Below, piece by piece: positions 15,055-41,212 of a DNA stretch of 42,978 bases. This stretch comes from a virus. The position numbers and the translations under genes are program-made. The notes under the pieces are model-generated. The model was given only the letters and a program-made list of their open reading frames with translations. It was not told where the DNA came from and made no database searches. Each line of letters starts with the position of its first letter. Position 1 is the stretch's first letter. The DNA is taken from IMG/VR virus record IMGVR_UViG_3300002835_000379, positions 1 to 42,978 of that record. One strand, given 5' to 3'.

Positions 15055-15055
15055 C

Positions 15056-16566: not shown

Positions 16567-16575
16567 ATTATATCA
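16567..16575 (-). promoter_or_regulatory. Extended -10 promoter (TGATATAAT), leaderless type
   Basis: A perfect TGA-TATAAT on the minus strand ends 6 nt before ATG 16560. It overlaps the last codons of the DUF6065 gene and would launch the second half of the oxygenase operon (16560 down to 12994). Confidence 0.65.
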
Positions 16576-17280
16576 TCCTATAGTGTTATCTTTTACATAT
16601 AATTTTAATGTTTTTACTTCATGAGACCCTACAGACTCACCATTTTCATTTACAGCATTTCTATACCAATCAGTCCAGTTTCCAGATGAATTTAGTACCT
16701 GTGCTGCCTCTCCATAAGCAATGTTTGCATTTGTTCTAGATCTATCCTCATCTTTATATTCTACAATTTCAATTGTTGTATTGTTTAAATTTGTTAAAGA
16801 TATTGGAATAATTGTTGCAATAGGTGTTCCTGCTTTTATAATTGTCTCTACATTAGCCTTTTTTGCTTTAAGTGCAAGGGGCAATGGGTTATCATAAAAT
16901 GAAGTACTTATTACGCTGGACATAGTTTCAAAGTCATCATTAAAATAATTAACTGGATGTATGGTCCAAATACTAACATCTGGATCTGTTTTAAAAACTA
17001 AAGAAGTATTTAAACTTATTGAAGATTGACCTCTTCCAGAATATGAGCCTGACGGGCTTACAATCTTTACATGTTTGTCTGTCTGATCATTTATTCCATC
17101 CCATGTAAAAATTATATCCTCTGAGCATGAAAGATACCATCCTATAACGTTTGACTGAGTTACTGGAAAACATCTATATGCGTGATTTTCAGATGTTAAG
17201 TCCATCCAATCTCTTTTAATTGACATTGGCTCAATGTTAAAAATACATCCCTGCATTTTTTCAACAGTAATGTTAAACAT
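16573..17280 (-). CDS. DUF6065-family protein
   Basis: A 235-aa soluble protein. The stretch around residues 16-65, with KRDWMDLTSENHAYRCFPVT followed by NVIGWYLSC and a DGIND turn, is the signature I know from DUF6065 proteins. These are found in phages and bacteria, often near 2OG oxygenases, and have no established function. A later block ANVETIIKAGTPIATIIPIS resembles the paralogous gene at 17975-18754. It is coupled to the upstream oxygenase by a TAATG overlap. The cupin-like beta-rich pattern suggests small-ligand or metal binding, but no catalytic residues are evident. Confidence 0.75.
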   Translation of the reverse strand: MFNITVEKMQGCIFNIEPMSIKRDWMDLTSENHAYRCFPVTQSNVIGWYLSCSEDIIFTWDGINDQTDKHVKIVSPSGSYSGRGQSSISLNTSLVFKTDPDVSIWTIHPVNYFNDDFETMSSVISTSFYDNPLPLALKAKKANVETIIKAGTPIATIIPISLTNLNNTTIEIVEYKDEDRSRTNANIAYGEAAQVLNSSGNWTDWYRNAVNENGESVGSHEVKTLKLYVKDNTIG

Positions 17281-17963
17281 TATTCATTTGCCCACTTTGG
17301 ATCATACATATCTGGTGTATGATACTTTTTACTATAATCTAACATTGTTACAATTGAATACTTAGTTCCAGAATGTACTGGCATTGCTTGATGTGGATAC
17401 ATAAAGTTTGATGGGAAAACATACAGATCTCCAGCCTTTGGCTTTATGTTTAAGTTTTGCAATCTAAAATATAACTCTCCACCATCGTAGTCGTCATTAA
17501 TATATGCAACTAAAGAAACGGTGCAATTATAAGAGAACCCATGATCATGGTGTTCTTTAAAGTGTTGTCCTGGTCCATACTTGATAAAGTTAAATGCTTC
17601 CCAATATTTTAACGGCATAATGTTATAATCTCTACGATAATCATCTACTGCTGGAGCCTGTACGTCATAAACGTCTTGCCAAATTTTTTGAAGCAATAAA
17701 GAGTCCTTGCTTGGATCTGATTCAATATCAGTTTTCTTAAATTTAAAGTCATAGCAATCACGATAATCTGGCATTAATTGTTGATATCCTACATATGCTG
17801 GTAGCCAGTGATAAGGCTTTCCTTCTGGAGACAACTCGCCCCATGGCGCTGGAGATCCCAAAAGACTTTCCAATCTTTCTATAATATTTAATTCTGGTTT
17901 AATAACACCTCTATAGCAAGTAATTCCAAACCCTAATGATTCTTTTTCTGTCCAGGTTGACAT
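17280..17963 (-). CDS. 2OG-Fe(II) oxygenase, prolyl-4-hydroxylase type
   Basis: A 227-aa dioxygenase with ligands H138-H-D140 and H191 and 2-oxoglutarate Lys K201. The fold core reads AYINDDYDGGELYF, then KPKAGDLYVFPSN and SGTKYSIVTMLD. It is closest to the gene at 18744-19466: both have a YYEAFNF/KYWEAFNF strand and HxDHG. Those two are therefore probably duplicates. A clear AAAGGAGATATC ribosome site precedes ATG 17963. Lys at the 2-oxoglutarate site is the arrangement of prolyl-4-hydroxylases. Confidence 0.9.
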   Translation of the reverse strand: MSTWTEKESLGFGITCYRGVIKPELNIIERLESLLGSPAPWGELSPEGKPYHWLPAYVGYQQLMPDYRDCYDFKFKKTDIESDPSKDSLLLQKIWQDVYDVQAPAVDDYRRDYNIMPLKYWEAFNFIKYGPGQHFKEHHDHGFSYNCTVSLVAYINDDYDGGELYFRLQNLNIKPKAGDLYVFPSNFMYPHQAMPVHSGTKYSIVTMLDYSKKYHTPDMYDPKWANE

Positions 17964-17974
17964 GATATCTCCTT

Positions 17975-18754
17975 TTACTTATACTCTCTTCTTGTCCAAA
18001 TTTTATCTTTATATACCCCGCCATCTGGCTGGCGATAAATATTTGCGTTATCTACTATTTTAGCATATACTGTTGATGAATCTAAAATGTCAAGTTCATG
18101 CTCCCAATTTTCTCTTTTAAATGGAAGTATTTGTAGGTATGGAGTTCCTGCTGGAATAGTTCCTTCCCAGCCTTCAATAATAAAAAATGGAAAACTGCCC
18201 AATAACTCAACCTTATCTGAGTCTACCACTCCAGTAGTATTCATAAAAGGTAGATCAAATCTATTCATTGGAGTCATAAACAATGCACTATAGCCTTCTG
18301 GTAATTTCATTCCCCAATCTGGCATCCAGGCAAAATGATCTTTATAATATCCTTGCGGATGTTCAAATTGTGGCATTGGTGGCCTAGATGTACAAAAATC
18401 TCTATACATTTGATTTTCTATTATAAAATCTAAAGAGCCTTTACTATTTTTAGTAAATGTAATATCAGTTGGAGTTCTAAATACATAACCAGTCATGAAA
18501 GCATCCATGATTGCTGGACAAGCCTTCCATGTTGGGATCATTCCATAATCATCTGTAGTTCCAGATTTTGGAAATGGACAAACCTCTTTTGGAGCCTTGT
18601 AGTATTCTCCAGTTACTGGATTTTTAGCAAACCTATCAGCATCCTTATACCATTGAGGTATTTCTTTTTGTGTAGGAGTTGGAGCAGATTTACTTTCTTT
18701 TGTTAGCCAAGGACGATATGTTTTAAAGGATACTTTTTGATATTCATCGGCCAT
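17975..18754 (-). CDS. DUF6065-like beta-rich protein
   Basis: A 259-aa protein of the same general type as 16573-17280 and 40215-40973. The core reads ALFMTPMNRFDLPFMNTTG, then VVDSDKVELLGSFPFFI, then IPAGTPYLQILPFKRENW. The N-terminal part is Pro- and Lys-rich with IPQWYKDADRF. It has no transmembrane segment or signal. It is sandwiched between two P4H-type oxygenases and overlaps the upstream one by 11 bp, so it is probably made along with them. It may be an accessory or substrate-handling partner, but nothing in the sequence proves that. Confidence 0.65.
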   Translation of the reverse strand: MADEYQKVSFKTYRPWLTKESKSAPTPTQKEIPQWYKDADRFAKNPVTGEYYKAPKEVCPFPKSGTTDDYGMIPTWKACPAIMDAFMTGYVFRTPTDITFTKNSKGSLDFIIENQMYRDFCTSRPPMPQFEHPQGYYKDHFAWMPDWGMKLPEGYSALFMTPMNRFDLPFMNTTGVVDSDKVELLGSFPFFIIEGWEGTIPAGTPYLQILPFKRENWEHELDILDSSTVYAKIVDNANIYRQPDGGVYKDKIWTRREYK

Positions 18755-19466
18755 TCTGATGACCTAACTCATTAATATCAGTCATGATTACGACACAATA
18801 CTTTGTACCGCTCTTCATTGGAAGAGATGCATGCTCATAAATGTAGTTAGATGGGAATACAGCAATGTCTCCAATCTTTGGTGTAAGAGTATAGCCGTCT
18901 AATCTTGGAAATTGTATTTCTCCGCCTTCATAGTCATCATTAATATATATAACGGCAGAAACAGTTGCATTGTATGCTGGACCATGATCTGCGTGAATAT
19001 TGAAGTGTTTTCCTTCTCCTTCGTACTTTACAAAATTAAATGCTTCATAATAAATAACATTAATTCCCCAATAACGTGCATAGTCGTCTATGCAAAACTT
19101 TAATTTTTGATAAATTTCTTCATGTAGATCAATCAGTTCTCCATTGAACTCATCTCTGGGGCCTAAGTTTTCTTGCTTATATTTAAAGTCTACAGCATCT
19201 CTTGCTCTTTTAATTGGTGTTGTAGAGTTTGTGACTTGTGCCTCTGACCACTTGTATCTTCTTGTACCATCTAAATTTTCTTCAAGTATTTTGATATATC
19301 TGTCAGCATCATCCTTACTAAAAACATTTCTATAAACATTTAAACCAAGTCCAGGATTTTCTACAACTATGCCGTTTGGCAAAGTCTTTGTTGGATATCT
19401 GTTTGATGCGGTTTCTGAACGATCTTTTGTAAACCAGGGATTCTGGTTTTCATCATAAATTTCCAT
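18744..19466 (-). CDS. 2OG-Fe(II) oxygenase, prolyl-4-hydroxylase type
   Basis: A 240-aa dioxygenase, the first of the six-enzyme array and the closest to the FFP-repeat protein. Ligands are H158-A-D160 and H212; K222 ten residues later is the 2-oxoglutarate anchor. The core AVIYINDDYEGGEIQFP is textbook for the family. An AAAGG ribosome site precedes ATG 19466. It is a near paralog of 17280-17963. Nothing in the active site gives the substrate, but the Lys anchor and the position downstream of a proline-repeat protein fit protein prolyl hydroxylation. Confidence 0.9.
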   Translation of the reverse strand: MEIYDENQNPWFTKDRSETASNRYPTKTLPNGIVVENPGLGLNVYRNVFSKDDADRYIKILEENLDGTRRYKWSEAQVTNSTTPIKRARDAVDFKYKQENLGPRDEFNGELIDLHEEIYQKLKFCIDDYARYWGINVIYYEAFNFVKYEGEGKHFNIHADHGPAYNATVSAVIYINDDYEGGEIQFPRLDGYTLTPKIGDIAVFPSNYIYEHASLPMKSGTKYCVVIMTDINELGHQNGR

Positions 19467-19490: not shown

Positions 19491-19928
19491 TTATGCTATT
19501 GAACTAAAAGAGGTTCCGTCCCAATTATATGTTTGTCCGACATAAACAGTTTGTCTGTCTGGAATCTTTGCTAAGGTCATACCTGCAGCATTTGCAGCAG
19601 CAAACATTTCTGCCTTTGGACCTTCTGATGGCACAGCCACTCTTGCAACAACAACATTGTTGGATAAGAATGCATACAAATTAAAAGAATCTAATTGCTC
19701 CTGTGTAGCAGTTAATAAGTTAGGCCCTGCGATTCCCCCAGAAAATGATGAACCATTAAAAGTTGCTCCATGCAATGCTGTTTGCTTGTATGCACTTGCA
19801 TCCATTGATGAAATAGTTGCTCCAGTTGCATAGACTGTATCAAGATTATCCATTACCTCTGGCTTATTGTTTGAATATAATCCAATAACATCATAAGCAT
19901 CATTGTTTTCTACTATTATTGCATACAT
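19491..19928 (-). CDS. Small fibre-associated protein
   Basis: A 145-aa protein with a beta-rich, Ala/Gly/Ser-rich composition and no signal or membrane segment. It begins MYAIIVENNDAYDVIGLYSN and ends QTYNWDGTSFSSI, a W-D-G-T-S-F ending seen in phage tail-fibre and fibre-assembly proteins. It has its own TGCTATAAT promoter and an AAAGGAG ribosome site. It lies between the repeat protein and the oxygenases, so it may be a fibre cap or chaperone. I do not recognise the family. Confidence 0.55.
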   Translation of the reverse strand: MYAIIVENNDAYDVIGLYSNNKPEVMDNLDTVYATGATISSMDASAYKQTALHGATFNGSSFSGGIAGPNLLTATQEQLDSFNLYAFLSNNVVVARVAVPSEGPKAEMFAAANAAGMTLAKIPDRQTVYVGQTYNWDGTSFSSIA

Positions 19929-20004: not shown

Positions 20005-20982
20005 TTAACAGGCGCACGATCTTCCTGGGCAACATACTGAACATCTCCAGCAATATCCGCAACTACAGCCTCCGCCTGTTGGGGCAGTTGGTGGTGGTGC
20101 GAAACTTGGTGGGAAGAATGGGAAGAACGGGAAGAATGGGAAGAACGGTGGGAAGAATGGGAAGAATGGGAAGTAAGGGAAGAACGGTGGGAAGAATGGG
20201 AAGAACGGGAAGAATGGGAAGAATGGTGGGAAGAACGGGAAGAATGGGAAGAACGGGAAGAACGGTGGGAAGAATGGGAAGAATGGGAAGAACGGAAAGA
20301 ACGGTGGGAAGAATGGGAAGAACGGGAAGAATGGGAAAAACGGCGGGAAGAATGGGAAGAACGGTGGTGTAGTGTTAACACTATTTGTAGTTACACCAGT
20401 TGATTCTCCACATGCATTTGTAATATAAATTGTATAAGTCTGTGATCCTGGACTTACTCCTGGATCATTAGCAGCATATGATGTTGCAGAAGGAGAAATA
20501 CCAGTATAACTTGATCCATCCGAACCAGTGATTCTGATTGATGTTAATGCGGTACCTCCAGTTGCTGATCCAGTTGGAAGAGTCCATGATATTGTATTTG
20601 TGTTAGCAGATGTAGCAGATGCTGAAACACCTGTAGGATTATTTGGTCTTGTTGTAACTGTTACTGCAGATGAAGTAGATGATGCAAGTGATGTTCCAGA
20701 AGCATTTGTTGCTGTTACTGTAAAAGTAGGCGTTGCTCCTGCAGCAATTCCAGTCACAGTAATTGGAGATGATGCTCCTGATGCTGACTGACCAGTACTT
20801 GCTGTAACAGTATAAGAGGTTGCTGGAGGTGATCCTGCAGGCAATGTAAAGGCAACTGATACAGCACCATCATTATATGCTCTACCGCTACATGTATTGG
20901 TTGGAACAACATCGATTGGTGGTTTTGGCTCCAAGAAGTCATTTGCTGCTTGGGACTTTTTTCCTACTTTTTTATTTGCCAT
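20005..20982 (-). CDS. Fibronectin-III / Phe-Phe-Pro repeat protein with Cys-rich tail
   Basis: A 325-aa probable virion surface protein. Residues about 25-205 are two fibronectin-type-III-like beta-sandwiches (typical TPTFTVTATNASG and TISWTLPTGSATGG pieces). Residues 206-291 are a low-complexity tract of Phe-Phe-Pro repeats in a 13-residue (39-nt) register. A short Pro/Ala/Thr linker leads to eight cysteines at 306, 308, 311, 314, 317, 318, 323 and 325. The same tail ends the proline-rich protein at 33321-35720. There is no Sec signal. The ribosome site is AAGGGGA. It is followed downstream by six 2OG oxygenase genes. Confidence 0.75.
   Translation of the reverse strand: MANKKVGKKSQAANDFLEPKPPIDVVPTNTCSGRAYNDGAVSVAFTLPAGSPPATSYTVTASTGQSASGASSPITVTGIAAGATPTFTVTATNASGTSLASSTSSAVTVTTRPNNPTGVSASATSANTNTISWTLPTGSATGGTALTSIRITGSDGSSYTGISPSATSYAANDPGVSPGSQTYTIYITNACGESTGVTTNSVNTTPPFFPFFPPFFPFFPFFPFFPPFFPFFPFFPFFPPFFPFFPFFPFFPPFFPFFPFFPFFPPFFPYFPFFPFFPPFFPFFPFFPFFPPSFAPPPTAPTGGGCSCGYCWRCSVCCPGRSCAC
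20109..20369. repeat. 39-nt tandem repeat tract encoding Phe-Phe-Pro repeats
   Basis: The plus strand is almost pure purine in this tract, built of GGGAAGAAT and GGGAAGAAC steps with a longer period of about 39 nt (13 codons) set by GGTGGG. On the minus strand it is read as Phe-Phe-Pro triplets punctuated by double Pro. All frames on both strands stay open, so apparent ORFs on the other strand are shadows. Copy number could change by slippage in steps of 39 nt without breaking the frame. Confidence 0.9.
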
Positions 20983-27437: not shown

Positions 27438-28001
27438 ATGATTACTTTTATGAATAATAATAAGAACATCATTGGCACACTCAGCATATTGGCTATGTTT
27501 GCAGTTTGGTCAAACGTGGCTAATGCTTCTGAAAACCGATTAGACGATAGTAAAACTATCGTGCTTGAAGAGACTATTGAGGCCACGCAAGTGGCCAAAA
27601 GTGTTTCTAAGGCTAAAGAAGATCAGTTAGAAAAATACAAAAATGCTGTAAATCTATCTGACAAAGACCTTAAAAATCTATTAGCATTAGTAGGTTTTGA
27701 AGGTCAAAAACTAAGGGAGGCTTGGGCTATTGCTAAAAAAGAATCTGGCGGTAGACCAATGGCGTTAAACCTTAGTAAAAGAACTGGAGATAGTTCTTAT
27801 GGCTTATTTCAAATAAATATGATTGGCGACCTTGGTCCTGAACGTAGAGATAAGTTTAATTTAGAGTCAAATTATGAGTTATTTAATCCAGTATTGAATG
27901 CTCAAGTTGCGTTCCACATGTCAAGAGGTGGTAAAAATTGGATTGCCTGGAAGGGCATTACTCCAAGAACAAAGCAACTAATGGGTGGATTCCCACAATA
28001 A
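27438..28001 (+). CDS. Exported lysozyme/transglycosylase-like lysin
   Basis: A 187-aa protein. The N-terminus (residues 1-30) looks like a Sec signal: a short Lys/Asn head, a hydrophobic core IIGTLSILAMFAVW, and cleavage expected after ANA (30/31). A charged helical linker (35-75) leads to a lysozyme-like domain: catalytic E102 in AIAKKESGGRP, then SSYGLFQIN (119-127), the motif of SLT-type transglycosylases. It should cut peptidoglycan outside the membrane, in lysis or at entry. AAGGAGG at 27426-27432 fixes the start. It is on the opposite strand to the neighbouring structural genes and overlaps the end of 27978-28871 by 24 bp. Confidence 0.85.
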   Translation: MITFMNNNKNIIGTLSILAMFAVWSNVANASENRLDDSKTIVLEETIEATQVAKSVSKAKEDQLEKYKNAVNLSDKDLKNLLALVGFEGQKLREAWAIAKKESGGRPMALNLSKRTGDSSYGLFQINMIGDLGPERRDKFNLESNYELFNPVLNAQVAFHMSRGGKNWIAWKGITPRTKQLMGGFPQ

Positions 28002-28871
28002 AACACCAGATGGATCCAGGGCTGCTACTTTATTTTTAAAGTGGTTATGCCTTGGATCCATTCCATGTTTTGCAGGCATTCCAATAACGCTATTGGTAGA
28101 TAAAAGTCCAGCAGACTGACTAAATGCAGAATTTCCAACTATTAAAACCTTAGCAGTTAACATAAAAATAAACGAACTATATGTATCCATGTCATTTCTT
28201 ATTATTACATTTGGGTATGCCTTTTTAAGTAAATCAAAGTTAATACTTGTGTGTGGATACTCTCCAGATTCATTTTGATATAAGTGTGGCTGTCTCCACA
28301 TACGCTCTTGGTTATACCCCCTTGGAGTAAAAGTATTATCATCAGAATCAGTGCAGATAATAACATCTGGGCTATCCATCTGACATTTATCTATAATTTC
28401 TGATATTTGTAACAAAACCTTTTCATAAAATTTATCCTCTACATACCTTGGATTTTCTGGTATAGCATTTCCTCGTCTAATGTGAATAACTATAGAGTTA
28501 TGAGTTTCGCCACTAAATTTATTAAAATGTATTGCTTCTTTTAAAAAATCAATATCGTCGTTTGTAGTTGCAAAGCCTGGAGCGGGTGCTCCTGCCCCAA
28601 CATTCTTGCATAAAGTTTTATATGGTATATGATTAAAATTAATATTTTGCCACGGATTGTATAAAACATTATTAAACTTATCCATTAAATTTTTATATTT
28701 TGGATCATCCTCACCATCAATACCATCAGATTTATGAATTAAAAACCAATCGATAGGTGTGTCCTTAAATATTTTTTTATGGTACTTAGCATATGACATA
28801 GCGTATATTTTTTTCCATAGCATTGCACCTAACCCATCCATGGTCTTAAATTCTTTTACAATATCTGTCAT
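27978..28871 (-). CDS. GT11-like glycosyltransferase (fucosyltransferase-like)
   Basis: A 297-aa protein. It has the GT11 donor motif as SIVIHIRRGN, the N-terminal GLGAMLWKKIYAMSYAKYHKK helix resembling the family's G-x-G-N-Q-x-F-Q helix, and a late VGNSAFSQSAGLLS matching the (S/G)NSxFSxWAA motif. GT11 enzymes usually transfer fucose or related 6-carbon L-sugars from GDP to an OH group. The usual Asp of HxRRxD is Asn here. I prefer ATG 28871, which makes an ATGA overlap with the previous gene; ATG 28877 is possible. It comes shortly after a GDP-sugar epimerase gene. Confidence 0.75.
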   Translation of the reverse strand: MTDIVKEFKTMDGLGAMLWKKIYAMSYAKYHKKIFKDTPIDWFLIHKSDGIDGEDDPKYKNLMDKFNNVLYNPWQNINFNHIPYKTLCKNVGAGAPAPGFATTNDDIDFLKEAIHFNKFSGETHNSIVIHIRRGNAIPENPRYVEDKFYEKVLLQISEIIDKCQMDSPDVIICTDSDDNTFTPRGYNQERMWRQPHLYQNESGEYPHTSINFDLLKKAYPNVIIRNDMDTYSSFIFMLTAKVLIVGNSAFSQSAGLLSTNSVIGMPAKHGMDPRHNHFKNKVAALDPSGVLLWESTH

Positions 28872-29824
28872 AGCCATCCCCTGGATGTTAATTCATTATA
28901 ATACATATCTTTCCAGTGCAGTTGTCTATGGATTCCAGGGTGTGGCCTATTTGATCCTGGACCCCATGGCCCCGCAAACTTATGATAGTCATATGCCATA
29001 TCAAAAATATCCATATGATTATCAAAATATTCTTGATGGCATTTTACAGAATCCCAATTTATCATCTTATATTGTGGCAATAACTTATCTTTTGTATCTC
29101 CATGAATATCAAATTCAAAATCCATGGGGAACTGTTTCCTAGTAGTGTCTGTAAAATAATTTTTAAAATTATTTTTTAAAAATGTTTCATTAGAATCTGT
29201 TAATGCATTTGACCATGTACTCCAAATAAGTTTAATACCTTGTGAATTACAAAAGGTTTCTAGCATTTTTATATGATCTAAATTTTGATAGTATACCCAC
29301 TCATAAGGCAAAATTTCTTGATAGTTCCACGGTGCCGTAACCTTGGTTTTTTTTGGTGAGTAATTAATATACCAATCTTGCATATATTCTGCATTTGGAG
29401 AAACAAAATAAAATCTTTCAAAATTTGCAAAATTACAAATAACAATTTCTGGTATATACTCATATTTATTTATTAATCCAAAAAAACTAGAAACTAACTT
29501 GTTTATTGCTGCTCCACTATATGATATATTCCCTATTAAATGTTTGCTATATCCTAATTCTTCTTGCAATAAATTAGACCATCTTAGATTTTCTGGAAGT
29601 CCCTGACCTAAAGTTAAAGAACAACCCAAAGCAATTACGTTTGGCTTTTGTGCAAAGTCTATAGACCTTAGACCATCATCATTCCATTGGTAACTATATT
29701 CTGGCCTAGGTATTTCTGCATGTGCTGCAATAATTGGATCATTGACTTTATACTTTCTGCTCTTAGTATTTTTATTATATCCAGTATGTGGTATTGGGCC
29801 AGGAATATATAAATCATCAAACAT
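28868..29824 (-). CDS. SGNH/GDSL-like hydrolase
   Basis: A 318-aa protein. The block IALGCSLTLGQGL gives nucleophile S69 in the GDS(L)-equivalent GCS; a later NISYSGAA holds the Gly of block II and NFANFER the Asn of block III. H295 in RPHPGIHRQ would be the catalytic His, but the residue three before it is Asn292 rather than the usual Asp. Family members remove O-acetyl or other acyl groups from sugars and lipids. Here it sits between two glycosyltransferase-like genes, so acetylation control on a glycan is plausible. ATG 29824 follows TGATATACT by 7 nt. Confidence 0.72.
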   Translation of the reverse strand: MFDDLYIPGPIPHTGYNKNTKSRKYKVNDPIIAAHAEIPRPEYSYQWNDDGLRSIDFAQKPNVIALGCSLTLGQGLPENLRWSNLLQEELGYSKHLIGNISYSGAAINKLVSSFFGLINKYEYIPEIVICNFANFERFYFVSPNAEYMQDWYINYSPKKTKVTAPWNYQEILPYEWVYYQNLDHIKMLETFCNSQGIKLIWSTWSNALTDSNETFLKNNFKNYFTDTTRKQFPMDFEFDIHGDTKDKLLPQYKMINWDSVKCHQEYFDNHMDIFDMAYDYHKFAGPWGPGSNRPHPGIHRQLHWKDMYYNELTSRGWL

Positions 29825-29831
29825 AAAAACT

Positions 29832-29840
29832 AGTATATCA
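29832..29840 (-). promoter_or_regulatory. Extended -10 promoter (TGATATACT), leaderless type
   Basis: TGA-TATACT on the minus strand ends 7 nt before ATG 29824. It restarts transcription for the SGNH hydrolase and the GT11-like gene. The 79-nt gap upstream is AT-rich with a short AGATTA/TAATCT inverted repeat but no clear terminator. Confidence 0.55.
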
Positions 29841-29903
29841 GATTAGACTTTTTAATCTTTCTATGTTTTTTCCACATTCGATACTTTAAGATTAATCTTT
29901 TTA

Positions 29904-30938
29904 TCATTTTAATTTAGACTCCTGCCACTCTCTCCACCACATCTTCCTACCGCCTTCTAGTGGGTATCCATTCCAAGAATACGGACTTCCTATTGCTTTT
30001 GGTGGATTATCAAAAAAGTCCCACGTTTCTATGCCCTTTTGATTTCGTACTCTATGTATATAGGCTGAATAAGTACTTCCAGAAGTACCAACAAAATTTA
30101 CAGAATCGTGCAAAACCAAATTGCAGATTAAACCAAAAACAACCTCATCCTGAAATGGCAACGACATAAAGTCATCTCTAAAATTATTGACTATATACTC
30201 ATCAAGCAATATAAACCTATGCTTATTATCTTGTATCATTTTATTTCCTGGTTCGCAGGTAGACACAACTATTGGCAATTTATTATTTTCATATATGCTT
30301 AACCAAGACTCAAACATACCTTGTGTTGTATCAAACATTTTGATATGATCTGAAAGCCTTAAATGCATTCCTTGAAAAGAACCTAAAGAGTTAGATATTT
30401 TTTTGGCTAAGTCTACATATACATCTTTAAATTTTACGGACTTTAGAGCATTATCTAGTTCTTGACTTCTATTGTAAAAGAATCTACTATACCATCCAAG
30501 TGTTTTTTTGAGATGAAGATTTTTGTCTAGTGGAATTCTTTGTCTTCCTTCGGCAAACAATAATTCATTTTCAGATATTTCATTTTCATTACTGTAATAA
30601 TACCCATTAAGAGTGTCATCAATTACAAACTCTTCTTGTTTAAAAAAATCAATCTTTGTATCTATAAAAGTTAAATCTTCATTAAAGTTTATTAAATCTA
30701 AAAGGTGTGGAAATTGATCTGGATTTGTAAAATCTTTTCGTTGTTCATTATGCCATCTACTTGGTGTAAAAATTGGAACATTTCTAGAGTTGTATAAATC
30801 GTCTCCTGCATTACTTACATAATGAACAATTAAATCTTTTTTTGTTTCATGTGCAAGTCCTACAGCCAACTCTAAACTCATAACCTGATTAATCATTCCA
30901 GTTGGATTGTATAACTGAAAAAATATTTTATTTGACAT
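29904..30938 (-). CDS. O-fucosyltransferase-like (POFUT/plant-type) glycosyltransferase
   Basis: A 344-aa protein. The segment SLGSFQGMHLRLSDH resembles the HxR donor-site motif, and NFVGTSGSTYSAYIHRVRN near residue 290 matches the late GSTxS...R block of O-fucosyltransferase-type enzymes. These use GDP-fucose, and the neighbouring epimerase makes related GDP-L-sugars. No signal or transmembrane segment is present, so it acts in the cytoplasm. It overlaps the epimerase gene by 11 bp. The acceptor is unknown; a hydroxylated fibre protein or a surface glycan are both possible. Confidence 0.7.
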   Translation of the reverse strand: MSNKIFFQLYNPTGMINQVMSLELAVGLAHETKKDLIVHYVSNAGDDLYNSRNVPIFTPSRWHNEQRKDFTNPDQFPHLLDLINFNEDLTFIDTKIDFFKQEEFVIDDTLNGYYYSNENEISENELLFAEGRQRIPLDKNLHLKKTLGWYSRFFYNRSQELDNALKSVKFKDVYVDLAKKISNSLGSFQGMHLRLSDHIKMFDTTQGMFESWLSIYENNKLPIVVSTCEPGNKMIQDNKHRFILLDEYIVNNFRDDFMSLPFQDEVVFGLICNLVLHDSVNFVGTSGSTYSAYIHRVRNQKGIETWDFFDNPPKAIGSPYSWNGYPLEGGRKMWWREWQESKLK

Positions 30939-31896
30939 TTTTAATTTGATCGCTTATCCAGTTATAGGTCTGTGTCAGACCATACTCTAGATCTTCGCTT
31001 GGCCTGTATCCCAAAACTTTTGTAATTAATTCGTTATGAGACGTTCTTGCATGCACACCAAGTGGTCCAGAAATATGCTTTTTATTTAGTTGCTTTCCTG
31101 CTATATTGCAAACAATATCTACTAATTCATTTATAGAAACATTTCTTTCTGAACCTATATTGATTGGATCAAAATAGTTTTCTTCTCTATAAAAATCTAT
31201 TGTAGCCTTAACTGCTTCATCTATATACAAGAATGAGCGATGCTGTTCTCCATTACCCCAGATTTCTATTTCATCTGTTGCCTTTGCTACCTTGCGACAA
31301 ATGGCTGCTGGTGCCTTTTCTTTACCGCCATCCCAAGTACCGTATGGGCCATACACGTTGTGATATCTTCCTATCTTATTTTTCATACCATAATTTCTAT
31401 TATATGCAAGATATAGTCGCTCACTAAAAAGTTTTTCCCAGCCATACTCTGTATCTGGTGCTGCAGGGTAAACAGAATCTTCTTTTGTATTTATACTTCC
31501 TGGATCCATCTGATTATACTCTGGATAGACACAAGCGGTAGATGAGAAAAATATAGACTTAATTCTTACTATTTCTGCCTGCTTCAAAACATTAACATTT
31601 ATTAATATTGAGTTACCCATAACTTCTGCATCATTATCGCCAGAGTTAATATACCCTGCTCCACCCATATCAGCAGCCAATTGATAAACTTCATCAAATT
31701 TTATTGGCATTACTTTTTTTACAACGTCTGGATTTCTTAAATCTCCAATTACAAAATCATCAGCATACGTCTTCCAATATTCTGGATATTTAAGATCTAC
31801 ACCACGAACCCAAAAACCTTGTTCTTTCAATTTTTTGACAAGATGACTTCCAATAAATCCTCCTGCGCCAAACACTATTGCTGTCTTTGATTCCAT
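30928..31896 (-). CDS. gme: GDP-mannose 3,5-epimerase
   Basis: A 322-aa extended SDR enzyme that interconverts GDP-D-mannose, GDP-L-galactose and GDP-L-gulose. NAD binding is by FGAGGFIG (9-16). AADMGGAGYI (75-84) and YHNVYGPYGTWDGGKEKAPA (178-197) are highly characteristic of GME rather than of GDP-fucose synthase. C122 (SSTACVYPE), Y151, K155 and K194 correspond to Arabidopsis GME C145, Y174, K178 and K217 at one constant offset of 23 (numbering from memory). CGGAGGAACA precedes ATG 31896. It likely feeds the glycosyltransferases downstream with GDP-L-galactose. Confidence 0.88.
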   Translation of the reverse strand: MESKTAIVFGAGGFIGSHLVKKLKEQGFWVRGVDLKYPEYWKTYADDFVIGDLRNPDVVKKVMPIKFDEVYQLAADMGGAGYINSGDNDAEVMGNSILINVNVLKQAEIVRIKSIFFSSTACVYPEYNQMDPGSINTKEDSVYPAAPDTEYGWEKLFSERLYLAYNRNYGMKNKIGRYHNVYGPYGTWDGGKEKAPAAICRKVAKATDEIEIWGNGEQHRSFLYIDEAVKATIDFYREENYFDPINIGSERNVSINELVDIVCNIAGKQLNKKHISGPLGVHARTSHNELITKVLGYRPSEDLEYGLTQTYNWISDQIKNVK

Positions 31897-32441
31897 TGTT
31901 CCTCCGTTATAGTTTTACGAATTACATCTAAGTACCCTGGACCCTTTTGTACCCACCAGTGATCTGGTTCAACAAAATGAAAAAATATCATTGCTACATT
32001 TCCAGAATCTGGGTTTGGAAATTTTTCTCTCCAATGCAACTGATCATTTCCATAATAAGCAAGGGCTTGATTTGGATATAATGTATATGCTTTATTTTCT
32101 ACAAATAAATCCCATGGCTCTGTTTGATAAACGCAAAAGTCTATAGTATAGGTACAAGCGTTATCATCTATATGCTTGTATAAATTTGCCTGCTTTCCTT
32201 CATAATGTGCAAAAAGAGAATATGATGGAATAAGGTTTTCACTGTTAAATTGTTTTCTAGCAATTGGTATTAACTTTTCTGCATAAGAGTCTATTAGTGA
32301 GTCATTAAAACAATACCTTCCAAAACCATCAGAATAGTCTTGTGGATTTTTTGGTTTATTTTTTAAATAGTTACTAAGTTCATAATATTCTTCTTCAGAA
32401 AAAACTTTATCCATAATAACTGGATCTTTAATCTGTATCAT
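31875..32441 (-). CDS. Divergent 2OG-Fe(II) oxygenase
   Basis: A 188-aa protein. ATG 32441 forms an ATGA overlap with the previous stop; the longer frame begins with TTG and is less likely. Ligands appear as H90-I-D92 (LYKHIDDNACTYTI) and H136 in GNDQLHWREKF. The usual INDDYEGGE core is missing and the Lys/Arg ten residues after the distal His is not evident, so 2-oxoglutarate binding may use another residue such as R138. The HWRE loop is one I associate with a separate phage branch of the superfamily. Substrate unknown; it is co-transcribed with the epimerase and GT genes. Confidence 0.72.
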   Translation of the reverse strand: MIQIKDPVIMDKVFSEEEYYELSNYLKNKPKNPQDYSDGFGRYCFNDSLIDSYAEKLIPIARKQFNSENLIPSYSLFAHYEGKQANLYKHIDDNACTYTIDFCVYQTEPWDLFVENKAYTLYPNQALAYYGNDQLHWREKFPNPDSGNVAMIFFHFVEPDHWWVQKGPGYLDVIRKTITEEQWNQRQQ

Positions 32442-33040
32442 CTTAACCAACTTACTACTGCATACCTTGTTCCACTAGTTACTGGAAGTACAGAATGATT
32501 GTATACATATGTTGATGGGAAAATAATTAATTCATTTTTTTCTGGTTTATGACTTACATTAAATCTTGGAAACTCTATCTCTCCACCTTCATAATCATCA
32601 TTCATGTAAAATATTGTAGACATTCTTCTATGATGATTCTTGTGGTCATCTATATGATTAGTAAATTTTTGACCAACGCCATATTTTAAAATACCATAGT
32701 CATCATGCCAAGTAGTCTCACATGAAAACATTGATCTATAGTCTATTTCTCTAGGATTAAATGCTTCAAAAAATATATTAGATAAATTTCCATAAAATGC
32801 ATCGCTAAAAGTCATAAAATCATCAACTATATAATCTTTATATGGTACACCTATAACTGATGTATCTCTAGCCTTAGTATCTACTTCAACACCGCCTTGG
32901 CCCTCTACCAGAGACTGATTCCATTCCACATTTAGTGATTCAGCGCCCTCTTCAATATCTTTTATTAAAGTAGATATGATATTGTCATCTAGTACATTCT
33001 TATAACAAACAATACCTGGAGCAATTTCATCTTTAATCAT
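32438..33040 (-). CDS. 2OG-Fe(II) oxygenase, prolyl-4-hydroxylase-like
   Basis: A 200-aa dioxygenase with ligands H129-I-D131 and H182; R192 is the 2-oxoglutarate anchor (SGTRYAVVSWLR, at the very C-terminus). The core IFYMNDDYEGGEIEFPRF is strongly P4H-like and close to that of 18744-19466. It lies two genes after the proline-rich fibre gene, and the stop of the zinc-ribbon gene is just before its ATG. It is a reasonable candidate for hydroxylating prolines in that fibre. No substrate is shown by the sequence itself. Confidence 0.9.
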   Translation of the reverse strand: MIKDEIAPGIVCYKNVLDDNIISTLIKDIEEGAESLNVEWNQSLVEGQGGVEVDTKARDTSVIGVPYKDYIVDDFMTFSDAFYGNLSNIFFEAFNPREIDYRSMFSCETTWHDDYGILKYGVGQKFTNHIDDHKNHHRRMSTIFYMNDDYEGGEIEFPRFNVSHKPEKNELIIFPSTYVYNHSVLPVTSGTRYAVVSWLR

Positions 33041-33041
33041 A

Positions 33042-33281
33042 TTACCACTTTTCTAGTGGACAAGTTGCATTTAGTAATTTAGTTTTAGCAAACATAAAAC
33101 ATCCACACTTTTTACATTGCTTTGTTAGTTTTATTAGTTCTGGACAGGATTGACAAATAGAATATCTTTCTTCTGCTACCTCTTTTGATGCCCACTCTGT
33201 TTCAGGGTTAATGAGATCCCATGGTCTAGTATCTCCAAGGCTTTCTTTATATTTTTGCCATACTGATTTTTCTTCTGACAT
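33042..33281 (-). CDS. Small zinc-ribbon protein (DUF6171-like)
   Basis: A 79-aa protein. Its C-terminal half has CQSCP, then CKKCGCFM, then ATCPLEKW: five to six cysteines in a CxxC...CxxCxC...CP pattern that should bind zinc. The plus-strand gene 41012-41212 shares almost all of it. The N-terminus is variable and Trp/Lys-rich (SVWQKYKESLGDTRPWDL). Such proteins accompany phage tail and DNA genes, with no known function that I can state. It is the first gene between the proline-rich fibre and the oxygenases, with an AGGG ribosome site. Confidence 0.75.
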   Translation of the reverse strand: MSEEKSVWQKYKESLGDTRPWDLINPETEWASKEVAEERYSICQSCPELIKLTKQCKKCGCFMFAKTKLLNATCPLEKW

Positions 33282-33312
33282 ATTTTCCCTACTTTTGTAT
33301 AGTTATTTATAC

Positions 33313-33318
33313 ATTATA
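33313..33318 (-). promoter_or_regulatory. TATAAT box upstream of the zinc-ribbon / glycosylation operon
   Basis: TATAAT on the minus strand lies 31 nt before ATG 33281, just after the stop of the proline-rich gene. A TATACA follows closely at 33296-33301, so which of the two is used is uncertain. Confidence 0.45.
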
Positions 33319-33320
33319 CA

Positions 33321-35720
33321 CTAACAAGCGCAAGTTCTTCCTGGGCAACATTCGCTACATCTCCAACAATATCCACAAGTACACTCTGTCGTTCCACCAG
33401 TTGGTGATGCAACAGGTGCTGCTGGGCTAGGTGCTACAGGTGCTGCTGGGCTAGGTGCTACAGGTGCTGCTGGGCTAGGTGCTACAGGTGCTGCTGGGCT
33501 AGGTGCTACAGGTGCTGCTGGGCTAGGTGCTACAGGTGCTGCTGGGCTAGGTGCTACAGGTGCTGCTGGGCTAGGTGCTACAGGTGCTGCTGGGCTAGGT
33601 GCTACAGGTGCTGCTGGGCTAGGTGCTACAGGTGCTGCTGGGCTAGGTGCTACAGGTGCTGCTGGGCTAGGTGCTACAGGTGCTGCTGGGCTAGGTGCTA
33701 CAGGTGCTGCTGGGCTAGGTGCTACAGGTGCTGCTGGGCTAGGTGCTACAGGTGCTGCTGGGCTAGGTGCTACAGGTGCTGCTGGGCTAGGTGCTACAGG
33801 TGCTGCTGGGCTAGGTGCTACAGGTGCTGCTGGGCTAGGTGCTACAGGTGCTGCTGGGCTAGGTGCAACTGGTGAAGGTGCTACAGGGGTTGACCATGGC
33901 TCTGAAGAACACTCACCGAATGTGCTGCTCCAATAATATCCACATGACTGACACTTAGACTGATTATATGACCAAGCCAAGTTTTCATCACATGATGCAA
34001 CAGGTGCAGGTGAAGGTGCTACAGGGGCAGGTGCTGGTGCTGGTGCAGGTGCTGGAGTTGGTGCTGGAGTTGGCACTGGTGTAATTGTTACTGGTACAGG
34101 TGCCACAGGGCTTGGTGCGACAGGACTTGGTGCAACTGGAGCAGGTGAAGTCCATGGAGTTGTTGAGCATTCGCCAAACTCATCTGAGTAGTAGTATCCA
34201 CATGATTGACACTTAGACTTATTGTATGCCCAAGCATCTGCAGGAACGCATGATGGTGCTACTGGTGCAGGAGCAGGTGCTGGTGCTGGAGCAGGTGCTG
34301 GTGCAGCAGGGGCTGGGGCAGGCGAAGGACTAGAACCCCATGGTTCTGTTGAACATTCACCAAATTCATCTGAGTAGTAGTATCCGCAAGCCTGGCACAT
34401 TGACTTAGTGTATGACCAAGCATCTGCAGGTACGCATGATGATGAAACTGGTGCTGGGGCAGGTGATGGAGATGATCCGCAACTTAGTGTAGGAATTGTT
34501 CCTCCAACTCCACTTTGTGTACTTGTTACAGATCCAGAACATTGGCTATTCATAGAATTAAATGCTAAAGTAAAGTCTACGCTACTTGTTCCAGTAACCT
34601 GCTGATTATTGGTGGAGCAACAACCTGTATACCAATAAGTAATTCCTGCTGGTGCAGGTGTTGGAGCAGGCGATGTTCCACTACAACTTGGTGTTCCATC
34701 TTGTGGTGTCGAACCACAGACCCATCCAATAGGTGGATATCCATTTGCATTTTCTTGAGCATCATATGCATCGGCACAAGAAGATGATGTTGAGAATGGT
34801 CCAACTGGATTATTGCTTAAATCACAATATCCAAAGTAATTTGTTACTCCTACTGGAGCAGGGGCTGGGGCAGGAGCAGGTACTGGTGCAGGAGCAGGTA
34901 CTGGTGCAGGAGCAGGTACTGGTGCAGGAGCAGGTACTGGTGCAGGGGCTACAGGTGCGACAGGTGCGACAGGTGCGACAGGTGGAGGTGCTACAGGAGC
35001 AGGGGCTACTGGGCTAGGTGCTACAGGTGAAGGTGCTACGGGAGCAGGTGAAGGTGCTGGGGCAACTGGAGCAGGAGCAACAGGAGCAGGTGCTATGGTT
35101 GATCCTTCATATACATCGCCAGTAACTAACCATGTATTAGTGTCTAACTTTATAACAGTAACTCTACCATATTGAGAATCAATATATGCTTCACTAGGAT
35201 TTTTGCTGAGAACTGTTGCAGATGAACTAATCAGTACTGTACCAGTTCCCAATCTAACTACATCAAACTTAAAACCATTTGCTATTGGCAATTCTGCGTT
35301 TGTTGGAAGGGCAATTGTAGAAGCAGAAGAACTGTCTACAGTAATTACTTTACCCGCATCATTTAAATCAATACTATAAGAACCTAACTTTGATACAACA
35401 TTTGAATACCCTGATACATTCTTCCATCCATTATGGTAATACTGTAATTGGTTTATTACAGTACCGCCAGTTGTAGATTGTCTTACAAAACAAACTGAAC
35501 CATCTACTGGGTTTGGTATAGCAATGTCACGAGTTTCTGGAGACTGAAAATTATTAATTCCTGCTCTTGATATTAAAACTTCTTCAAAAGTAACGGGGGA
35601 TGCAAAGGTTTGTGAAGCAGTCCAAGTATAAGAAGCATTAGTATTAATAGCACCACTGATGGCATACCATGTGCCATCCTTATAAATATATGCTACTTTA
35701 CCGTCACTATTAATTGGCAT
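33321..35720 (-). CDS. Proline-rich repeat fibre with cysteine modules and Cys-rich tail
   Basis: A 799-aa probable virion fibre. Residues 1 to about 205 form a beta-rich fibre domain ending WLVTGDVYEG. Then Ala/Val/Ser-Pro dipeptide repeats alternate with Cys domains. Two early Cys domains are at about 290-345 (YFGYCDLSNN) and 355-415 (YTGCCSTNNQ). Three copies follow of a module that starts C-x(5-6)-W-x-Y and continues CQxCGYYxS and FGECS. Next come 19 units of the octapeptide APVAPSPA and an eight-Cys tail (residues 780-799) matching that of 20005-20982. The composition resembles plant hydroxyproline-rich glycoproteins. It starts inside the stop region of a 38-aa ORF. Confidence 0.85.
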   Translation of the reverse strand: MPINSDGKVAYIYKDGTWYAISGAINTNASYTWTASQTFASPVTFEEVLISRAGINNFQSPETRDIAIPNPVDGSVCFVRQSTTGGTVINQLQYYHNGWKNVSGYSNVVSKLGSYSIDLNDAGKVITVDSSSASTIALPTNAELPIANGFKFDVVRLGTGTVLISSSATVLSKNPSEAYIDSQYGRVTVIKLDTNTWLVTGDVYEGSTIAPAPVAPAPVAPAPSPAPVAPSPVAPSPVAPAPVAPPPVAPVAPVAPVAPAPVPAPAPVPAPAPVPAPAPVPAPAPAPAPVGVTNYFGYCDLSNNPVGPFSTSSSCADAYDAQENANGYPPIGWVCGSTPQDGTPSCSGTSPAPTPAPAGITYWYTGCCSTNNQQVTGTSSVDFTLAFNSMNSQCSGSVTSTQSGVGGTIPTLSCGSSPSPAPAPVSSSCVPADAWSYTKSMCQACGYYYSDEFGECSTEPWGSSPSPAPAPAAPAPAPAPAPAPAPVAPSCVPADAWAYNKSKCQSCGYYYSDEFGECSTTPWTSPAPVAPSPVAPSPVAPVPVTITPVPTPAPTPAPAPAPAPAPVAPSPAPVASCDENLAWSYNQSKCQSCGYYWSSTFGECSSEPWSTPVAPSPVAPSPAAPVAPSPAAPVAPSPAAPVAPSPAAPVAPSPAAPVAPSPAAPVAPSPAAPVAPSPAAPVAPSPAAPVAPSPAAPVAPSPAAPVAPSPAAPVAPSPAAPVAPSPAAPVAPSPAAPVAPSPAAPVAPSPAAPVAPSPAAPVAPSPAAPVASPTGGTTECTCGYCWRCSECCPGRTCAC
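33409..33864. repeat. 24-bp tandem repeat, 19 units (18 identical)
   Basis: The plus-strand unit is GCTACAGGTGCTGCTGGGCTAGGT cut as GCTACAGGTGCT + GCTGGGCTAGGT (two halves of 12 bases). Units from 33433 to 33864 are 18 perfect copies; the first (33409-33432) has one changed base. It encodes PSPAAPVA repeatedly. Perfect identity means recent expansion or active homogenisation, and length can vary in frame. Confidence 0.95.
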
Positions 35721-37259: not shown

Positions 37260-37268
37260 ATTATACCA
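37260..37268 (-). promoter_or_regulatory. Extended -10 promoter (TGGTATAAT) for the BppU-like gene
   Basis: TGG-TATAAT on the minus strand, 15 nt before ATG 37244, with a strong GAGGAGG in the leader. It overlaps the stop codon of the collagen-like gene. Confidence 0.6.
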
Positions 37269-37989
37269 CGCCGATGTATATAGAATTCAAAATTACAGAA
37301 GAGTCATAGTCTGTTCTAATCTGAGGGATAGCGCCAGAATTCCACATATCTTCATTCTCTATAAAAAAGTGCTGAGTAACATACATATTATAGACATATT
37401 GATATTTTAGTGAGGCTACAAACTGAGATATTTCGGTGGTAGATTTAGGGAAAAAGGTCCTAATCCAAACCTCAGTATTATTGTATTCAGTCGTCAATTC
37501 AAAGTTATAGGTTACAAATACCTGTGATCCTACATTTAAGCCATGAAAGTTAAGCATTCTTTGCTCTGCATTCCACAGGCTTGTGCATCCTTCTGGTAGA
37601 TATTTTTCATTGGTATCTTTACCCTTTGAATCTACCCAAAGACTTACCCACCCTTCGTCACCGTAACTTACTCCTAAATTTAATGGTTTTTTATTTAAGT
37701 TAAAATATCCTGCCCAGCCAGCCTGTTGTCCAGATGAAGACAAAGAACTTTTTCCATCCTTACCGTCTTTACCAGTTGCACCTTTTTCGCCTTTAGGACC
37801 CTGGCTACCGTCTTTTCCAGCAGGTCCTTGGGGTCCAACAGGCCCAGGCACTCCTGCAGGCCCCTGTGGCCCAGGAACGGGTATATAGTTGATTAATGTG
37901 TCAGAACCTGTTGTTTGTGTCTGTACGACTTGATCTGCGTAAGTTGATTTTTTAGCACCAGGGAAATCCATAGATTTAGAAACAGCCAT
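37261..37989 (-). CDS. Collagen-like fibre protein
   Basis: A 242-aa protein. Residues about 38-81 are Gly-X-Y repeats (PGPQGPAGVPGPVGPQGPAG, then KDGSQGPKGEKGATGKDGKD), which should form a trimeric collagen-like shaft. A beta-rich C-terminal domain of about 150 residues follows, probably the tip. The Pro-rich Y positions are possible targets for prolyl hydroxylases such as those encoded downstream. ATG 37989 is 6 nt after TGGGATAAT with no ribosome site. Confidence 0.78.
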   Translation of the reverse strand: MAVSKSMDFPGAKKSTYADQVVQTQTTGSDTLINYIPVPGPQGPAGVPGPVGPQGPAGKDGSQGPKGEKGATGKDGKDGKSSLSSSGQQAGWAGYFNLNKKPLNLGVSYGDEGWVSLWVDSKGKDTNEKYLPEGCTSLWNAEQRMLNFHGLNVGSQVFVTYNFELTTEYNNTEVWIRTFFPKSTTEISQFVASLKYQYVYNMYVTQHFFIENEDMWNSGAIPQIRTDYDSSVILNSIYIGVV

Positions 37990-38009: not shown

Positions 38010-38702
38010 TTATTCACAAATATATGAGAATGACATGTGGCATTTATCTGAAGTTGTTAAAACAAATGGTGAGTTGTGATCAAATGGCTCATCTTTTGCA
38101 GAACTTCCAATATTCCACATAGTAAAGGTAGTTGAGCCTGGAGATAGGTGTCCCTTAATACTGTAATGATCTATGCCTTGATTTACAACATCGTGTATTG
38201 ATCCACCATAAACATCTGTATGGTATTTTGATGCAAATGGAATAGTTAGTGAATACTGTCCAGTTCCAAAATTAGTAACGTTAGTAAATAAAACATCTAT
38301 TTGAACAGTTACTAAATTTCCAATCTTAATATAAGATCCAGTTGCTGGTGTTCCAGTAAAAGTTAAATCAGTTGCAGACCAAACTGGGCTGTAAGAATTA
38401 ATTGTAGTTGTACCAGTGTCTAGATTTGCATCTTGACCATCTATTCCATCTTCGCCTGGTTCTGCAATCGTTGTCCAATAAAAAGTTCCTGGTGGATATC
38501 CTGGATTAGGCTCACCAACTCTGTAATATGTTCCACCGTTATATGTAACTACATCTCCTGGTGAATAGTCTGCTCCATTGTCGTATGCTCCAACAAAATT
38601 CCAAAGAGCATCTGCTCCATCTGCACCTGCTGGACCTTGTGGACCTGTGGGACCTGGAATACCAGATCCATTTCCGCTACCAGGATGTGTAAACCGTGCC
38701 AC
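38010..38702 (-). CDS. Collagen-like fibre with CBM5/12-like carbohydrate-binding domain
   Basis: A 230-aa protein starting with GTG 38702, which overlaps the upstream TAG. Residues about 12-30 are Gly-X-Y repeats (PGPTGPQGPAGADGAD). Residues about 33-78 (WNFVGAYDNGADYSPGDVVTY, then NGGTYYRVGEPNPGYPPG) resemble a chitin-binding-type CBM5/12 module. A second short Gly-X-Y stretch and a C-terminal beta domain follow. It is likely a fibre that touches surface glycans. Confidence 0.75.
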   Translation of the reverse strand: MARFTHPGSGNGSGIPGPTGPQGPAGADGADALWNFVGAYDNGADYSPGDVVTYNGGTYYRVGEPNPGYPPGTFYWTTIAEPGEDGIDGQDANLDTGTTTINSYSPVWSATDLTFTGTPATGSYIKIGNLVTVQIDVLFTNVTNFGTGQYSLTIPFASKYHTDVYGGSIHDVVNQGIDHYSIKGHLSPGSTTFTMWNIGSSAKDEPFDHNSPFVLTTSDKCHMSFSYICE

Positions 38703-41011: not shown

Positions 41012-41212
41012 ATGGGAGACGATGTTAAGTTTAGTGACTTGTTTGATCCTAATCAGCCAAGAAGCGATAGAGATTTAATTGAATCCCGCCTTGAAATATG
41101 CAATACGTGCGAACACTTTAATCGTCGTATGGTAAAATGTAAGAAATGTGGTTGTTTTATGAAACTTAAGACAACTTTAAGATCGGCTAAATGCCCTATA
41201 GGAAAGTGGTGA
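41012..41212 (+). CDS. Small zinc-ribbon protein (paralog of 33042-33281)
   Basis: A 66-aa protein with an acidic head (MGDDVKFSDLFDPNQPRSDR) and a zinc-ribbon tail: ICNTCEHF, then CKKCGCFMKLKTTL and AKCPIGKW. The Cys spacing and the CGCFMxxKT block match the minus-strand gene at 33042-33281. The start follows a leaderless-type promoter by 6 nt. It is the first of two plus-strand genes that end at a shared terminator. Function unknown. Confidence 0.75.
   Translation: MGDDVKFSDLFDPNQPRSDRDLIESRLEICNTCEHFNRRMVKCKKCGCFMKLKTTLRSAKCPIGKW

Follow-up and report, generated by a model that had tools for sequence, protein, structure and literature searches.

We analyzed a gene block in IMG/VR record IMGVR_UViG_3300002835_000379, an uncultured water phage, of which the whole stretch of 42,978 bases is called the window here. 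An earlier note on this DNA had read positions 27978-35720 as a candidate system for hydroxylating and glycosylating a proline-rich fibre, and the eight open reading frames (ORFs) that it listed are borne out in their coordinates, their order and their placement on a single strand (minus). In transcription order they encode a proline-rich repeat fibre, a small zinc-ribbon protein, an oxygenase resembling prolyl 4-hydroxylase (P4H), a second, divergent oxygenase (OXY2), a GDP-mannose 3,5-epimerase (GME) and three proteins with weaker assignments. The cassette boundary is marked by a gene for a lysozyme-like protein on the plus strand (27438..28001).

The fibre gene (33321..35720) encodes 799 amino acids, of which residues 112-203 resemble a minor-tail-protein domain (phrog_8780, 4.8e-9) while the remainder consists of A/S/V-P repeats broken up by Cys-rich modules, with a Cys-rich end. 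Its 159 prolines are preceded mainly by alanine (92) or serine (35), in keeping with the Ala/Val/Ser-Pro composition described before, and a 24-bp tandem repeat within the gene (33408..33874; 19.5 copies, 99% match) codes for (VAPSPAAP)n, with one serine per eight residues. The zinc-ribbon protein (33042..33281) matches phrog_13558 (2.5e-16). As side observations, locus L373 among the relatives carries two tandem P4H genes with a zinc-ribbon match after each, and a second small zinc-ribbon protein of the window (41012-41212, plus strand), similar by eye to the first, lies distant from the cassette on the opposite strand.

The P4H-like protein (32438..33040) is a 2-oxoglutarate (2OG)-Fe(II) oxygenase that matches PF13640 (E=4.1e-18; 66.6 bits against a curated cut-off of 27). 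Its iron triad and 2OG residue (H129xD131, H182 and R192) are conserved in all 6 aligned relatives, and its closest PDB sequence is the bacterial prolyl 4-hydroxylase 3itq (1.1e-7). The zinc ribbon and the P4H-type oxygenase of the earlier note both stand. OXY2 (31875..32450) has no Pfam match and no PDB sequence match; its structure model (predicted local distance difference test score, pLDDT, of 79.9) is placed by Foldseek among 2OG oxygenases (best ALKBH6, 1.7e-6; also P3H1, Dictyostelium PHD and PBCV-1 P4H, with template modelling scores of about 0.5-0.6), which supports the divergent 2OG oxygenase proposed before. The top PHROG of OXY2 carries the name "ferrochelatase"; judged by the modelled fold, this family (PHROGs 2954/3531; cyanophage S-SM1) is probably a misannotated 2OG oxygenase family. 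The 2OG oxygenases of the window also match PHROGs named "DNA endonuclease (V)". All seven PF13640 proteins in the window retain the active-site residues, and profiles A2-A5 found no useful chain in the PDB. Hydroxylation of peptidyl-proline by P4H is likely, a prediction that rests on the co-occurrence of the enzyme with proline-rich repeats.

Searching with P4H returned 51 relatives at 54-100% identity and three at 27%. A proline-rich ORF ends 100-1600 bases upstream of P4H in 44 of the 51 loci, with 28 distinct C-termini, against a background of 8/238 among other same-strand ORFs of at least 200 amino acids. Six of the seven misses have less than 1 kb of upstream contig, and one of these (L245) still shows AVTP repeats; the seventh (L225) has 1.1 kb, taken up by a zinc ribbon plus a further two oxygenase ORFs. 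The proline-rich ORF is thus present in 44 of the 45 assessable loci. The repeats before P4H are unrelated in sequence (APSPAAPV, TPTP, AVTP, GPTP) and have the X-P pattern in common, and in 50/51 loci P4H is immediately preceded by a zinc-ribbon relative.

A sample independent of P4H was anchored on the lysozyme-like protein and comprised the best 80 of 573 loci, with a fibre callable in 57 and the other 23 dropped; like the PF11397 scan described below it consists of best-scoring rows and is not random, and some contigs recur between the scans. X-P repeats, defined as at least 11 small-residue X-P per 60 amino acids, are present in 24/24 fibres with P4H and in 11/33 without (Fisher 5.7e-8, relatedness ignored). 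The difference persists at a stricter threshold of at least 13 (22/24 versus 8/33) and after removal of identical fibre C-termini (19/19 versus 8/27), and for loci with P4H or OXY2 versus neither the counts are 30/30 and 5/27. On a lysozyme tree, P4H and X-P repeats change the same way in a mean of 2.4 supported independent pairs, the opposite way in 0 and without difference in 3.6; for P4H or OXY2 the values are 3.5, 0 and 1.5, becoming 4.3, 0 and 0.7 when the stricter threshold is applied. Three fibres in the slot with Gly-rich stretches (L399, L406, L407) have none of the enzymes searched for; the fibre of L398 is less Gly-rich and was excluded from this set. The link between oxygenase and fibre by co-occurrence is well supported, and the joint occurrence of these gene families across related phages that the earlier note expected has mostly held when seen from the side of P4H (44/45 assessable loci; 24/24 in the lysozyme-anchored sample).

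A second proline-rich protein (20005..20982), which the earlier note overlooked together with the genes behind it, lies elsewhere in the window on the minus strand. It has PPFFPFFPFF repeats (P 0.33, S 0.03 and T 0.02 in residues 206-325) and shares with the fibre a Cys-rich C-terminal tag, ...CxCGYCWRCxxCCPGxxCxC (33324..33404 in the fibre gene). As an observation in its own right, its gene repeats at positions 20108-20364 a 39-bp (13-amino-acid) unit that encodes five prolines, and it adjoins an array with six oxygenases. Behind this protein, and all on the minus strand, follow a protein kept in many relatives (19491..19928) and then the array, composed of PF13640 oxygenases (18744..19466, 17280..17963, 15805..16560, 15056..15808, 14395..15093 and 13662..14393), two phrog_7084 proteins (17975..18754 and 16573..17280, the latter also DUF6065) and a short-chain dehydrogenase at its end (12994..13662). 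A search with the first oxygenase of the array (18744-19466) gave 75 loci, 62 of them with a proline-rich ORF upstream, mostly of the PPFF type; contig edges account for 6 of the 13 misses, and because the rule used considers ORFs of at least 60 amino acids, a shorter end at a contig start is scored as a miss. One relative (L391) has six oxygenases next to a PPFF protein in its lysozyme slot.

The tag leads to the same enzymes. A DNA pattern for CGYCWRC matches twice in the window versus a mean of 0.00 in shuffles, and 101 times in viral contigs (99 loci), where 34 matches (33 loci) extend to CGYCW[RS]CxxCC and the remaining 67 are without the motif. In 34/34 cases the ORF ends 11-12 residues after the motif, which is preceded by proline-rich sequence, with 22-38% proline in the 100 residues before the tag and mutually unrelated repeats. 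PF13640 oxygenases occur in 29/29 records with tagged proteins versus 2/50 control contigs, one of these two above cut-off. Of the 33 tagged loci, L044 was dropped for sharing a contig with L043 and the other 32 gave the 29 records, several of them near-identical; the controls represent 50 of 66 non-tag loci, unmatched for phage type or length. Gene order is kept in the tagged loci: the zinc ribbon and P4H/OXY2 come after repeats of the APSP, TP and PPDFNPV types, and the array after the PPFF type, while a tagged protein with both PPFF and TP repeats (L029) goes with zinc ribbon, OXY2 and GME and without P4H. A looser tag pattern revealed no extra tagged proline-rich family among the 98 new matches listed from viral contigs. 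Other C-termini were also seen: the proline-containing fibres of L347, L353, L395, L368, L380, L387, L488-L490 and L492-L494 end in ...GILIHNK or ...NMVVHN, which to us resemble a Hint/intein-type C-terminus and suggest self-processing fibres.

The interval from P4H to the lysozyme-like gene holds a variable set of genes with OXY2, GME and O-fucosyltransferase (O-FucT)-like, NodZ-like and PF11397 transferases; further cargo in relatives includes GT61 (L226, L246), cupins, radical SAM-SPASM proteins, epimerases and a methyltransferase. The GME of the window (30928..31896) matches Arabidopsis 2c59 over its full length (E=2.6e-84; the best non-GME PDB chain reaches 7.5e-23), which confirms the earlier identification; by sequence it is firmly of the plant type, and we take its product to be GDP-L-galactose/gulose. 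GME-like epimerases are present in many other phages, cyanophages included. The remaining labels of the earlier note have proved less sturdy. The O-FucT-like protein (29904..30938) is a probable glycosyltransferase that matches PF10250 at E=0.12, and at 0.0026 in a 44% relative (L236), both below the curated cut-off, and its structure model failed (pLDDT 45). The protein called GT11-like before (27978..28877) is a probable glycosyltransferase with an HIRRG motif and only a sub-threshold match to NodZ (E=0.043), and 28868..29824 encodes a possible SGNH-type hydrolase/acyltransferase, a tentative label taken from a motif, with zero Pfam matches.

Relatives offer a stronger clue to sugar attachment in the form of PF11397, which we take to be the family of the Skp1 hydroxyproline N-acetylglucosamine (GlcNAc)-transferase. 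Five cargo genes match it at E values of 1.9e-36 (L216), 1.3e-34 (L228), 2.1e-34 (L211), 2.3e-42 (L251) and 3.6e-36 (L225); a PF11397-like gene lies within the cassette in 11/51 P4H loci and directly after P4H in 7/51, and none was found among the 20 window proteins scanned with Pfam. Gnt1 (GT60) adds GlcNAc to hydroxyproline of Skp1 and requires prior prolyl hydroxylation by PhyA, and GT60 also contains a polypeptide GlcNAc-transferase of T. cruzi (PMC6939170). The cargo probably adds sugars to the same fibre, and to this extent the joint pathway of the earlier note is upheld along with its oxygenase-fibre link. Its plant-like part, GDP-L-sugars on hydroxyproline, fares worse: hydroxyproline linkage and L-sugar are unproven, since the glycosyltransferase labels in the window are weak, GME-like epimerases are widespread and PF11397 and P4H are separable.

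This separability is apparent from a PF11397 scan of viral contigs (best 80 of 543 relatives). A proline-rich ORF lies upstream in 8 of 13 PF11397 loci with P4H (the other five are 0.4-1.7 kb from the contig start), in 12/12 with OXY2 only and in 7/55 with neither oxygenase, six of these seven being TP repeats with 45-48% Thr/Ser; the 48 loci of the last group without such an ORF were left aside in the fibre comparison. OXY2 is found in 10/16 PF11397 loci with TP-type fibres. The lysozyme-anchored sample contains 8 PF11397 loci without P4H or OXY2, of which three have Thr-rich fibres (L340, L393, L397), two have TP fibres (L370, L371) and three (L347, L353, L395) hold another PF13640-like ORF. 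Among 31 fibres compared, the lowest Thr+Ser contents of X-P repeats (0.02-0.12) are those of L332, L335, L343, L358 and L359, all with P4H or OXY2, and L359 combines DPDPDP repeats with P4H and a PF11397-like gene. Because Thr-rich fibres do without an oxygenase while the Thr+Ser-poorest X-P repeats have one, we infer from this handful of fibres a division of labour in which hydroxyls offered by threonine need no oxygenase and hydroxyl-poor repeats have one. A strict form of it is disfavoured by the PPFF fibres whose slot holds no oxygenase.

Taken together, we consider it fairly probable that the block forms a swappable cassette for fibre modification, in which X-P prolines are hydroxylated and the same fibre is decorated with sugars. 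The phage would make an extended, Cys-capped proline-rich fibre, presumably a tail fibre of the virion. P4H would hydroxylate its X-P prolines, as its intact active site and near-constant co-occurrence suggest, and OXY2 may help or, in some relatives, replace P4H; hydroxylation of the fibre is likely. The variable genes after P4H would then build sugars and link them to hydroxyproline and/or Ser/Thr of that same fibre. In the window, the two probable glycosyltransferases may draw on a GDP-L-hexose made by GME, which is the weakest step. A stiff stalk coated with sugars would result, different from phage to phage and possibly used for adhesion or shielding, and the PPFFPFF protein is probably served by its own six-oxygenase array. 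More tentatively, a large group of uncultured phages may carry extensin- or mucin-like stalks whose prolines are hydroxylated by phage enzymes and bear hydroxyproline-linked sugars, with each set of enzymes suited to its type of repeat. The matched sets, themselves a possible rather than an expected part of this wider picture, would be P4H/OXY2 with small-residue X-P, the array with PPFFPFF, and PF11397 alone with Thr-rich or TP repeats.

Several observations weigh against the cassette as a hydroxylation and glycosylation system. X-P fibres without P4H make up 11/33 of the P4H-negative fibres (6 with OXY2, 2 with PF11397 only and 3 with neither, the last being L368, L380 and L387 with borderline scores of 11-12), so that the converse association expected by the earlier note has held only in part, as is also evident from PF11397 without P4H. 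PF11397 is not linked to X-P repeats in the lysozyme-anchored sample (8/14 versus 27/43, p 0.76), and the glycosyltransferase labels in the window rest on sub-threshold O-FucT and NodZ matches. The independent changes supported by the tree are few (5-6 pairs), consistent but not significant. Seven array loci off contig edges are without a proline-rich ORF by the rule used, and Ser/Thr-poor PPFF fibres stand without an oxygenase in the slot, the region examined, in L336, L402-404, L409 and L411. The distant P4H relatives (L252-254, 27%) have no proline-rich neighbour, and neither has the P4H homologue of cyanophage S-H9-1; from the former it follows that the association belongs to the cassette and not to the oxygenase family at large.

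The competing explanations differ mainly in the substrate that they assign to these enzymes. If sugars were placed on Ser/Thr only and independently of hydroxylation, as on a mucin, the fibre would still be hydroxylated, and the Thr-rich and TP fibres that accompany PF11397 without P4H or OXY2 in the lysozyme-anchored sample, the six further TP fibres before PF11397 with neither oxygenase and the polypeptide GlcNAc-transferase within GT60 (PMC6939170) would all be accounted for. Repeats nearly free of Ser/Thr that go with P4H and glycosylation genes (L343, and L359 with its PF11397-like gene) fit this poorly, as does the window repeat with its one serine in eight, and we regard it as possible but doubtful. 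It is unlikely that the oxygenases instead hydroxylate proline or lysine in collagen-like (GXY) tail proteins, in the manner of viral and bacterial collagen P4Hs, with the proline-rich fibre as a bystander. Such proteins are indeed encoded 1.5-3 kb upstream of the fibre gene, one a GXY tail fibre protein (37261..37989) and the other with a short collagen-like stretch (38010..38702; both on the minus strand); procollagen-proline dioxygenase-type enzymes are among the top PDB relatives of P4H, and viral P4H has been linked with collagen in fibres (PMC9301287). However, among the 28 loci that reach 8.5 kb past the lysozyme, GXY genes are about equally common with P4H (12/14) and without it (10/14), which disfavours a collagen hydroxylation system, and P4H tracks the adjoining X-P fibre instead.

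The strong differences in cargo between loci could also mean that these genes target surface glycans or the capsule of the host, for example in superinfection exclusion, and that they adjoin the fibre merely within a hypervariable host-range island; clusters of glycosyltransferases and 2OG oxygenases in cyanophages have been placed among capsular polysaccharide modification systems (PMC7824862). Yet the order of fibre, zinc ribbon and P4H is fixed, and the Gly-rich fibres that occupy the slot with none of the enzymes searched for are contrary to plain hitchhiking, so we judge this improbable. That the 2OG oxygenases act on nucleic acids or affect the 2-oxoglutarate/nitrogen state we judge to be highly improbable: aquatic phages commonly carry 2OG oxygenases, which are numerous in 14/16 cyanophage genomes, and earlier readings of these phage enzymes invoked 2OG/nitrogen effects or DNA repair (PMC3037559), and the S-H9-1 homologue lies among hypothetical genes with a helicase gene about 3 kb off, but such roles leave the linkage to proline-rich repeats unexplained and the best PDB matches are prolyl hydroxylases.

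The favoured reading, hydroxylation and glycosylation of the adjoining fibre, has partial parallels in known systems. As in the Skp1 route (PhyA-Gnt1 of Dictyostelium and Toxoplasma), a prolyl hydroxylase gene is followed by a PF11397/GT60-type gene in those 7 of the 51 P4H loci; unlike there, the candidate substrate is a long repeat fibre and not a single Skp1 site, and the scanned window proteins include no PF11397 member. The AP/SP/TP/VP repeats, P4H-like enzyme and plant-type GME recall the hydroxyproline-O-glycosylation of plant extensins and arabinogalactan proteins, which relies on hydroxyproline-specific families such as the galactosyltransferases of GT31 and the arabinosyltransferases of GT95; by contrast, no match to the plant families was seen here, and the setting is a bacterial cytoplasm with no secretory pathway. 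Since the window's transferases are not placed in those families by their sequences, membership in the Skp1 or the plant route is not established. Virus-encoded 2OG hydroxylases for structural repeat proteins are also exemplified by the P4H of PBCV-1, which Eriksson is said to have described in 1999, and by the collagen-modifying enzyme of Mimivirus, but these are eukaryotic viruses with collagen-like or short peptide repeats. Mycobacteriophages likewise encode the glycosylation of virion proteins, namely of capsid and tail tube (Freeman 2023, via PMC12619734), though the accessible text of that source mentions neither a prolyl hydroxylase nor a proline-rich fibre.

Among 50,697 phage records, P4H-like places occur in 368, all below 60% identity and with best rows at 27-30% (the neighbourhood was read for 2 of these 368), and close relatives of P4H, OXY2 and PF11397 are absent from the matches. 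PF11397 relatives are rare there (3/50,697, at 23-26%) and, as a side observation, very common in uncultured phages (at least 543 of 600 candidate stretches); OXY2 has partial relatives in 2 records. When bacteria and archaea were scanned by pattern, with a single genome representing each of 84,980 species, the P4H profile yielded no relative, and the lysozyme has only partial relatives in bacterial and archaeal genomes (43-54%, 13 loci, several phyla). The portal protein (5133-6731) is about 46% identical to those of the large Streptomyces phages Phredrick and Gilson, from which an actinobacterial host is a guess; the window has a GC content of 32-42%, and a further product (41464-42270) resembles, as we presume, a glutathione-peroxidase/thioredoxin-fold protein. 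In the first phages of freshwater Nanopelagicales to be cultured, which encode glycosyltransferases, a tail fibre and two collagen-like proteins lie in a variable island (PMC10202952); these phages might be convenient for studying fibre modification.

In the open-access literature that we searched, no phage prolyl-hydroxylase or glycosylated-fibre system was found, which does not prove its absence. The human prolyl hydroxylase EGLN3 was the most-hit human protein in a comparison with phages using Phold (PMC12774648), and a Baltic Sea study states that the viral use of prolyl 4-hydroxylase "remains cryptic" (PMC9301287). The co-occurrence pattern described here offers a concrete candidate substrate for viral P4H in the form of the adjoining repeat fibre, and it suggests that phages have evolved a plant- or amoeba-like decoration of their fibres. 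Plants, algae and amoebae are the organisms from which protein decoration of this kind is known. If true, this would provide compact enzyme sets for making hydroxylated and glycosylated proline-rich polymers in bacteria, and it would shed new light on the way in which phages that infect water bacteria form their surfaces.

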